From contig JAQICC010000157.1 of assembly GCA_027858735.1 (NCBI GenBank), positions 1 through 44,585 of the forward strand: a stretch of 44,585 nt of DNA, read 5' to 3'. The position numbers and the translations under genes were made by a program. Position 1 is the stretch's first letter; each line of letters opens with the position of its first letter. Below, piece by piece: positions 1-2,137 of the stretch. The stretch comes from Salinivirgaceae bacterium. GTDB taxonomy: Bacteria > Bacteroidota > Bacteroidia > Bacteroidales > SZUA-534. The notes beneath the pieces were generated by a model. That model ran no database searches, had not been told where the DNA came from, and saw nothing but the letters and a program-made list of their open reading frames with translations.

Positions 1-117
1 TTTCGTTACTCTTGCATTTCAACCAGTCATTTACGAAAGTAAACTCCTGATTTTCAATGCTGCGAAAGCCTCATTCTTGGAGCTTTCTTATCAGAGACCG
101 AGTTTTCTTGCACGCAC
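1..117 (-). other. Possible degraded coding remnant or dispersed repeat
   Basis: The minus strand has a protein-like frame here, broken by one TGA. The part after the stop reads GFRSIENQEFTFVNDWLKCK, and the part before it contains KTRSLIRKLQE. The pieces are too short to assign to a family and there is no start codon. It could be the end of a gene truncated at the window edge, a decayed fragment, or a dispersed intergenic repeat. It lies directly beside the inverted-repeat element at 126-400. Confidence 0.25.
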
Positions 118-125
118 TACTTATT

Positions 126-400
126 TAAATTTAAATGACTATCCGCTTTTGTACCCAATTTTAAATACCTAAAACCTAATGCTTTAATAATTGTTAGGAC
201 TATGTTTTAGGCAATAATTAAGATTTTTCATTCTAATAAAATTCATTTAGGACGATTTTATGAACGTGCTATTTTAAGTAATACAAATCGAATTTTGGTA
301 GTAGTTTAGTAATCTGTACGTTACCATATTTCAACAAAAAATGAGGGTCAAAATGATTAACTATTTTGGGGGTGAAGAAGCGGATAGTCATTTAAATTTA
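126..400. mobile_element. MITE-like element, 23-bp terminal inverted repeats, 8-bp target duplication
   Basis: Bases 126-148 and 378-400 are perfect 23-bp inverted repeats (left end starts TAAATTTAAATGACTATCCG). The homology continues imperfectly inward. The 8-mer TACTTATT occurs immediately outside both ends (118-125 and 401-408), as expected for a target-site duplication; the next base also agrees. The 275-bp interior has no credible ORF but contains a smaller hairpin (CTAAAAC near 169 pairing with GTTTTAG near 203). Together these are the marks of a non-autonomous transposon mobilised by a transposase elsewhere. I cannot assign the parent IS family. The rest of the gap up to 542 shows nothing recognisable. 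Confidence 0.8.
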
Positions 401-542
401 TACTTATTTTAGCATGAATTATCTAGTAATATATTAGCGCTACTTCTATTTTAAACAAAAAAAACTTGATTACGCTTATCAAGAAATACTAACTTATGTA
501 ATGTGAGTAATTTTCCAATAAAAGTAAATTTATACTCCTGAA

Positions 543-1292
543 ATGAAAACTTACTTAAATGTATTAAAATCTAACAGAGACCTAATCTGGGTAACACTTT
601 TTGCCATAGCCATGGCCATGCTAGAAAGTGCTGTGGTTATTTATTTACGCGAATTGTACTATCCTGAAGGATTTGCATTTCCGCTTAAAGAAACCTCATA
701 TACTGTTGCTATTACCGAATTATTCAGAGAATTTGCCACCCTAATAATGTTAATTGCTATTGGAATTTTGGTAGGAAAAACCAAGATAGAACGATTTGCA
801 TGGTTCATTTACAGCTTCGCCATTTGGGATATTTTCTATTATATTTTTTTGTATCTCATTATTGACTGGCCTCTCACCCTGAGCGACTGGGATGTTCTAT
901 TTCTTCTTCCAATCATGTGGGTTGGGCCTGTCTGGGCACCTGTTCTACTATCGCTCTTAATGATAATATTCGCTTTATGTATTTTATACTTTTCAAAAAC
1001 AAATATTACAACAACCATATCGTGGAAAGAATGGGCCTTGTTAATGAGCGGTTCCGTAATTGTGATTATTTCTTTCTGTATAGACTTTTATCAATACATG
1101 ACTACACAATTTCCTGCTAATAGCATTGGAGAATTGTTTTTTTCGAAACATACTTTTGATTATGCAGCCAATTATATTCCCCACCATTTCAATGTTGGTT
1201 TATTTGCCCTAGGCAGCACCGTAATTTTATTAGGGATTGGTAGGTTTATAAAACTGAATGTAAAACCACGCAGCAAGCTTACAAGAAATTAA
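543..1292 (+). CDS. Polytopic membrane protein of unknown function
   Basis: The product is a 249-aa very hydrophobic protein with about six or seven predicted membrane segments (roughly residues 14-34, 58-77, 84-108, 121-148, 163-182 and 217-238). It has no cleavable signal, and its charged tail (KPRSKLTRN) is probably cytoplasmic. I do not recognise the family. Aromatic and acidic residues beside the first segment (AMLESAVVIYLRELYYPEG) and the central WDVLFLLPIMWVGPVWAPV stretch look like conserved blocks. It stands alone, between the MITE-like element and a convergent DUF4249 gene, so context gives no functional hint. The ATG at 543 is preceded by AT-rich sequence without a Shine-Dalgarno site, which is normal for this phylum. 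Confidence 0.7.
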   Translation: MKTYLNVLKSNRDLIWVTLFAIAMAMLESAVVIYLRELYYPEGFAFPLKETSYTVAITELFREFATLIMLIAIGILVGKTKIERFAWFIYSFAIWDIFYYIFLYLIIDWPLTLSDWDVLFLLPIMWVGPVWAPVLLSLLMIIFALCILYFSKTNITTTISWKEWALLMSGSVIVIISFCIDFYQYMTTQFPANSIGELFFSKHTFDYAANYIPHHFNVGLFALGSTVILLGIGRFIKLNVKPRSKLTRN

Positions 1293-1336
1293 AGTAGGAA
1301 AATAAACTTTTTTAGAGTGAAATTATAATTTGAACT

Positions 1337-2137
1337 TTATTTTACCACCATAGTATCTGTAATAACCATACAAACGCCAAACCACCCGCGAACACCATTT
1401 TTGAAATTGCTGGGCACATTACCTTGCTCTATATCAAATAGTCCGCCACGCCATTGTGTTTCAATTAATAATGAACGTATAAAATCTTGATGTTCGTTAC
1501 TTAACGAATACTTTTTTCGAGTTAAGATAGTTCCTTTTGGAAACCATATTTCCTGCTTATCAGGGCCAAATTCTTCAGGAATATCAATATTATTCAAGGT
1601 GTAATGGGTTGTTTGAGCATAGCAGCTTCCGTAATATTGACAATATTCAGGTACAGATGACCAATCATAATAAACCTCTGTCATGGCTGGCAAATCGCTT
1701 CCACCGTATACAAATTTGTATAATTCCCCCTTTTGATAAACCGTATCGTTTTTAAAAGGGGTTATCGGTTCCATTTTTGCTAGTGCAGTGTCAATATGCC
1801 CATTATATTCAACAATTAAACCATAATCTTTATCGATACTTGCGGCGAAGGGTTCTGACACATACAAACCACCTGTGCCAATAGGTACAAATTCAGCAGA
1901 GTTAGTACCATCAGTAATATAAACATGAGCATTTAAAATTGGCACCGATGCCTGGTTAAATTCGCCCGATGACTGATACACATAAACCTCCTGCGATATA
2001 AACTCTCCGGTAATTATGGCATCAACAACAATAATTGATTCCGGATTTGGAAAAACCATTGAACCCTTCTCTTCACAGCCTGTTATTAGCAAAGCACTCA
2101 TAAAAATTAAGCTATATTTTATTGCGAATTTGGGCAT
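1337..2137 (-). CDS. DUF4249-family outer-membrane-associated lipoprotein
   Basis: The product is a 266-aa protein with a lipoprotein signal peptide (ALLITGC, lipidated Cys at residue 21). The mature part begins with the strand-rich pattern typical of DUF4249 (IIVVDAIITGEFISQEVYVY and later NAHVYITDG). In Bacteroidota, DUF4249 lipoproteins are usually encoded directly after a TonB-dependent receptor with an N-terminal carboxypeptidase-like domain, and that is the arrangement here: its start lies 2 bp after the stop of the receptor gene. By inference it is a surface or periplasmic partner of that receptor in binding or uptake of an unknown substrate. The C-terminal half holds three Cys residues (EYCQYYGSCYAQ and GVCMVI). 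Confidence 0.8.
   Translation of the reverse strand: MPKFAIKYSLIFMSALLITGCEEKGSMVFPNPESIIVVDAIITGEFISQEVYVYQSSGEFNQASVPILNAHVYITDGTNSAEFVPIGTGGLYVSEPFAASIDKDYGLIVEYNGHIDTALAKMEPITPFKNDTVYQKGELYKFVYGGSDLPAMTEVYYDWSSVPEYCQYYGSCYAQTTHYTLNNIDIPEEFGPDKQEIWFPKGTILTRKKYSLSNEHQDFIRSLLIETQWRGGLFDIEQGNVPSNFKNGVRGWFGVCMVITDTMVVK

Follow-up and report, generated by a model that had tools for sequence, protein, structure and literature searches.

The 259-bp stretch at positions 134 to 392 of the window (the whole stretch of DNA that was analyzed, 44,585 nucleotides; contig 81 in a draft genome of 452 contigs and 5,989,328 bases, hereafter the source genome) is a non-autonomous miniature transposon (MITE), very probably one with its ends at 134 and 392 that was moved by a transposase of the IS1595 family. 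Its copies and their boundaries, the 8-bp duplications, the tips in common with a resident insertion sequence (IS) and the transposase gene were observed directly. Comparison of these sequences suggests that the resident transposase moved the MITE, and the window copy would have landed beyond an older insertion of a separate element, here called repeat B. The features at the start of the window are as follows.

1 to 117, plus strand: repeat B, cut by the contig start and a separate element from the MITE; found at no fewer than 40 places in the source genome, the window included.
118 to 125, no strand: left copy of the outer direct repeat TACTTATT; its first six bases are the TANNTA duplication (TACTTA) of repeat B.
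126 to 133, no strand: left copy of the target duplication TAAATTTA, 8 bp and palindromic; it abuts AATGACT, as in three paired MITE and four paired IS copies.
134 to 392, plus strand: MITE, 259 bp, non-coding; other copies in the source genome start and stop there, and paired 8-bp duplications fix the ends.
134 to 156, plus strand: left terminal inverted repeat AATGACTATCCGCTTTTGTACCC, perfect over its first 15 bp; it begins the MITE left end, which over 28 positions has 26 identical to the resident IS1595-family IS at its right end.
370 to 392, minus strand: right terminal inverted repeat AATGACTATCCGCTTCTTCACCC, placed by the inverted-repeat match and comparison with the IS ends.
393 to 400, no strand: right copy of the target duplication TAAATTTA, 8 bp, placed by the paired-junction rule.
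401 to 408, no strand: right copy of the outer direct repeat TACTTATT, at the start of the single-copy flank.

The boundaries of the MITE (AATGACT...AGTCATT) were set by its other copies in the source genome. A search of that genome with positions 118 to 408 gave 19 matches: the window itself, eight contig ends lying inside the element, a pattern expected for repeats in draft assemblies, and ten short matches, each of them an IS end or one of the window copy's own inverted ends. Left ends of the MITE were located on contigs C194, C132, C320, C188 and C88, and right ends on C421, C40 and C92; this whole-genome search thus returned at least six copies, the window copy included. For all three right ends outside the window, the adjacent 8-mer was that of a left end on another contig (C132/C421, ATTTTTAA; C188/C40, TTATTTAA; C320/C92, TAATTTTT), and two of the five left ends, C194 (AAAACCTA) and C88 (TTAGACTT), had no partner in the assembly. 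Beyond AATGACT/AGTCATT, all eight of these ends differed from TAAATTTA. By the rule of paired 8-mers seen in the other copies, the window copy runs from 134 to 392 and its duplication is TAAATTTA.

The initial annotation had described an intact MITE-like element at 118 to 408 with 23-bp perfect ends and TACTTATT as its 8-bp target duplication. The element is a MITE, but its ends are 134 and 392. The letters were read correctly, as 126 to 148 and 378 to 400 are perfect 23-bp reverse complements, but these 23 bp include the target duplication TAAATTTA, which is its own reverse complement and so adds 8 bp to the inverted repeat at either end. The duplication is most likely not TACTTATT, which lies outside TAAATTTA. 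The true terminal repeats are perfect over 15 bp and agree at 20 of 23 positions overall. In 500 first-order Markov resamplings of window positions 1 to 1500 the longest perfect inverted repeat was 16 bp or less, and the 23-bp repeat is therefore not a product of chance. No credible open reading frame was present in the MITE stretch (longest complete one, 40 aa), in agreement with the initial description. The element is short and without a transposase gene, has inverted repeats in common with an autonomous IS (an identical 13-bp tip), and occurs as dispersed copies with target duplications (the window copy and three contig-end pairs).

The other copies were 97-99% identical over the aligned parts, and the non-window copies were nearly identical among themselves. 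The recent non-autonomous transposition proposed at the outset is upheld by this, the MITE being multi-copy and apparently recent. At position 208 the window copy had a base that all five other copies reaching it lacked, and at position 279 the same was true against four of four. The window copy therefore stands slightly apart from the others, which is perhaps why it was assembled whole.

As to the source of the ends, these had initially been said to resemble no nameable IS family, with a parent IS expected elsewhere in the genome. The expectation was borne out, and the family can be named: the ends belong to IS1595, and an IS of that family with the same 13-bp tip, AATGACTATCCGC, is resident in the source genome. 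The tip had 21 exact matches there (reversed control, 0), and all were assigned, 10 to MITE ends, 10 to IS ends and the last to an end of a second MITE. For the IS there were six left ends (C348, C31, C39, C181, C201 and C319) and four right ends (C150, C152, C87 and C84), and at least six IS copies are present. Each of the four right ends paired with a left end by 8 bp (TAAAATTA, TAAAAAAA, TAGTTTTA and TTACTTTT), and two of the six left ends (C31 and C181) were without a partner in the assembly. Contig C348 holds the left 951 bp of the IS with 298 transposase codons up to the contig end, and the last codons and the right end lie on C150 and others; from the overlap of these unjoined pieces the whole IS is estimated at about 1.0 kb.

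The readable transposase (298 aa) scored 205.5 bits against NF033547 (transpos_IS1595, cut-off 75), 79.2 bits against PF12762 and 27.8 bits against PF12760, the last two also above cut-off, and carries a zinc ribbon and a DDE-type domain. With an IS1595-type transposase and A/T-rich 8-bp duplications at its paired ends, the resident IS is, judged by its sequence, a member of the IS1595 family. Over 28 positions, the MITE left end and the IS right end agreed at 26, and the MITE right end agreed with the IS ends at 19 and 22, the higher figure being for the IS right end. Contig C119 carries the second MITE (L035 1501-1920), 420 bp long, which also has the AATGACTATCCGC tip, with one mismatch at its right end; TATTTCTT flanks it on both sides, and its interior is unrelated.

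We propose that the MITE, which encodes nothing, keeps terminal inverted repeats that would be recognized by an IS1595-family transposase. Supplied by full-length IS copies (about 1.0 kb, AATGACTATCCGC tip), the transposase would bind both MITE ends in trans and insert the element into A/T-rich DNA, with 8 bp duplicated; the target here would have been TAAATTTA. This copy would have landed just beyond the older repeat B insertion, with its TANNTA duplication TACTTA. Several points count against this explanation: the interior of the MITE has no trusted similarity to the resident IS beyond the ends, the right MITE end fits the IS ends less well than the left does, left ends without partners remain in both elements (two of five in the MITE, two of six in the IS), and the exact outer TACTTATT repeat must be a coincidence. 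Derivation of the MITE from the resident IS by simple internal deletion was rejected, as apart from the ends only short, chance-like matches were obtained.

Within this explanation it is possible, if unlikely, that the mover was another IS1595 transposase, from a lost or unassembled parent that also supplied the MITE interior. The unrelated interior and the partial match of the right end would fit such a parent, and further IS1595-type transposase genes or remnants were found in the source genome on C408, C213, C204, C177 and C163. The resident IS, in contrast, has the same 13-bp tip and duplication length and is multi-copy, whereas the stretch fetched from C213 showed one degenerate tip (2 mismatches) and that from C408 no tip within 3 mismatches.

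The outer TACTTATT repeat bears on where the mobile unit ends. TACTTATT occurs on the plus strand of the window only twice (118 to 125 and 401 to 408), and the chance of the outer match at one given position, by base composition, is about 6e-5. It is a genuine repeat that the standard insertion model does not explain. The target may have read TACTTATT-TAAATTTA-TACTTATT before the insertion, or else the unit, on one occasion, took an old duplication along when it moved. The first is favored because eight junction pairs or elements (three MITE pairs, four IS pairs and the C119 element) duplicate 8 bp directly outside AATGACT. The second corresponds to an improbable mobile unit of 275 bp at 126 to 400, with 23-bp perfect ends and TACTTATT as the true 8-bp duplication, for which the transposase may have cut 8 bp outside both ends and taken the old palindromic TAAATTTA along. 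One step would then explain an exact repeat of the family's duplication length flanking TAAATTTA on both sides; TACTTATT is A/T-rich like other targets, and an insertion beside the TACTTA of repeat B would need no second TACTTATT beforehand. Such a unit requires a double mis-cut, however, which is seen nowhere in the present data for IS1595 elements, and TAAATTTA stands outside the tip in none of the eight other MITE ends; the same eight junctions all duplicate the 8 bp adjoining AATGACT. A further repeat behind the right TACTTATT was considered and rejected, as window positions 393 to 545 gave, besides themselves, short weak matches to the source genome among the matches listed (best E 0.066, 18 bases).

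That the MITE is a fixed structured RNA or a regulatory repeat merely resembling a transposon is very improbable: the whole stretch folds far better than its shuffles (z -5.99), but the interior by itself does not stand out (z 0.69 and -0.89), so that the fold is due to the inverted ends, the flanks of the copies are unrelated and show 8-bp duplications, the other genomes searched yielded no full-length copy, and no Rfam family matched over the MITE at gathering threshold (the only matches in the window were five distant tRNAs). With an interior that folds like shuffles and no Rfam match at gathering score, a regulatory or RNA role for the element was rejected.

Returning to the IS1595-moved MITE, a full-length copy was found neither in 59 relatives nor in 392 other genomes of the order (overlapping sets). 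Matches at E ≤ 0.001 occurred in 3 of 60 and 8 of 393 genomes, the source genome being counted in both, with at most 12 and 2 candidates per genome scored, respectively, such that weak copies could be missed. Outside the source genome these matches were the tip alone (G035, G376) or internal stretches of 25 to 64 positions. Plasmid and phage collections gave no match to the MITE at E 1e-5. As no full-length copy appeared in the genomes searched, the MITE looks lineage-specific and recent. The initial annotation had set against mobility the combined finding of no copy in any relative and the 275 bp conserved as regulatory sequence; neither half was found as far as tested, copies being present in the source genome and full-length matches absent from the relatives searched.

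In other Bacteroidota, too, the tip of the MITE and the IS is found next to a related transposase. The 17-mer AATGACTATCCGCTTTT was found in 56 stretches of a collection of 84,980 species genomes, many of which may be noise, the chance expectation being about 30 under even base composition. Six of the 56, from three genomes, adjoined a piece of related transposase: in L075, L117, L122 and L127 (one Chitinophagales MAG) the match was 19-20 residues at a contig edge, in L097 it was 49% over 259 aa, and in L080 49% over 45 aa. In G035 (L025) the tip lies 34 bases ahead of a transposase start (66% identity over 105 aa).

As in the IS1595 family, the resident IS combines a zinc-ribbon and DDE-type transposase with terminal inverted repeats and A/T-rich 8-bp direct repeats; direct repeats of this length and composition are also reported for the family member ISApl4 (PMC12561309). 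The tip printed there for ISApl4 is GGGGCTGTACTAGA, which differs from AATGACTATCCGC. Unlike IS1595 insertion sequences, the MITE is without a gene. By description it resembles the ISHwa6/IS1595 MITE of Haloquadratum walsbyi (165 bp, 7 copies, IR 25, DR 8; PMC3852290) in being short and non-coding with IS1595-type ends, and differs from it in host domain, length and copy number. Among the Bacteroidota, BrickBuilt and other MITEs of Porphyromonas gingivalis are described in PMC4596501 as having ends that match a known IS family and no transposase remnant inside. The present MITE is like BrickBuilt in this respect, but according to the same source BrickBuilt has IS5-type ends, duplications of variable length and an internal minisatellite; two other P. 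gingivalis MITEs are given there with ISPg3 ends. As far as the searches reach, the present MITE is therefore new as a sequence and not as a kind, an ordinary IS1595-type MITE. It adds a small, recent case of this type with a likely parent in the same genome, and illustrates that a palindromic target duplication can pass for a terminal repeat, which is relevant to automatic MITE annotation.

Repeat B is the more novel lead. In the source genome its complete form is GTCTC(A)GCAAGAAAACTCC ... GAGTTTTCTTGCACGCAC, 141-146 bp (one copy was read as 153 by a looser pattern), and a both-end pattern gave 96 exact matches there, whereas the reversed control gave none. Complete elements were present at 35 of the 40 loci examined and absent from the other 5; four of the 35 ran into a contig end, and of the 31 with both flanks, 18 had an identical TANNTA hexamer on both sides, two source-genome copies with one left flank in common not being independent. 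Among eight further copies from other genomes, counted after exclusion of two that repeat earlier copies, five had the TANNTA duplication. In the window the right duplication, TACTTA at 118 to 123, opens the left TACTTATT.

For the structure of repeat B, 19 copies from six genomes (seven from the source genome, seven from G004) were aligned out of the 35, a choice that reduced near-duplicates and left out most of those with long inserts. A structure of 38 pairs (A2) held in 94.7% of cells, and both partners had changed in 18 pairs and 48 cells. Slid controls gave no more than 10 such pairs and 14 such cells, and the observed values were not attained in any of 500 shuffles, A2 having been derived from the same alignment, which favors it over slid versions. 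On the opposite strand the fold was a different one, with both partners changed in 15 of its 29 pairs. Such covariation shows that a palindrome has been kept but does not prove an RNA, because long inverted repeats can stay matched otherwise than by selection on RNA. A covariance model found repeat B at E ≤ 0.001 in 49 of 198 genomes of the order and 44 of 151 genera; the 49 include the source genome and three model genomes, and 13 of them reached the limit of 16 scored candidates. No Rfam match at gathering threshold was obtained for L142 and L155, both of which contain complete copies, so repeat B is not placed in a described RNA family by an Rfam match, and plasmid and phage collections gave no match to it.

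A limited search of the source genome and five others found no autonomous partner of repeat B. Of 16 stretches taken around source-genome ends that looked unpaired, the eight inspected showed copies with a mutated partner end, short variants, apparent insertions into repeat B, or no visible partner end. The strict end pattern had 80 matches in the five other genomes, 74 of them in G108, where complete inward-facing pairs were short (about 140-230 bp). Wider G108 pairs within 10 kb (C105, C140, C90) were rejected, as one end in each already belonged to a short copy.

ERIC sequences are non-coding, long imperfect palindromes of about 130-150 bp, with many copies in many genera. To our knowledge they have no known transposase. 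Repeat B is like them by description, in size, non-coding palindrome, copy number, spread and want of a known transposase, and differs in its 6-bp TANNTA duplication. ERIC is named among the MITEs in PMC3733652. Among the literature titles and abstract openings listed, no description of the MITE or of repeat B was seen, a weak negative as these were mostly of papers available without subscription. We tentatively regard repeat B, with somewhat less than even confidence, as a family of structured mobile elements, about 140-190 bp long, that occurs across the order and is so far undescribed; its members would insert at TANNTA with a 6-bp duplication, and their long palindrome would be kept by compensatory changes across genera. 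If so, it would be a new kind of ERIC-like repeat, and a structure-dependent mobile element or mobile structured RNA would persist across the order without a visible transposase. Should this hold, repeat B matters more than the MITE, given its presence in about a quarter of the sampled genomes, its duplications and its strong covariation.

Several individual copies of repeat B were irregular. Past the same inner stretch, L209 (C181) runs into DNA with a 347-residue frame that may be IS110-like. A small insert lies at the same point as this C181 break in L210 (C26), and the copy in L213 (C286) ends abruptly within the central hairpin, close to other frames. Other elements may land preferentially in repeat B. 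At L202 208-241 (contig 79 of the source genome) a 34-bp stretch has repeat B-like ends and TAAATA on both sides, and is possibly a minimal repeat B relic. In the G004 copies L177, L178, L180, L182 and L183 the loops contain extra segments (about 20-27 bp, with much CCTGCC/GGCAGG-like sequence), which appear to be yet another small palindromic repeat lodged inside repeat B.
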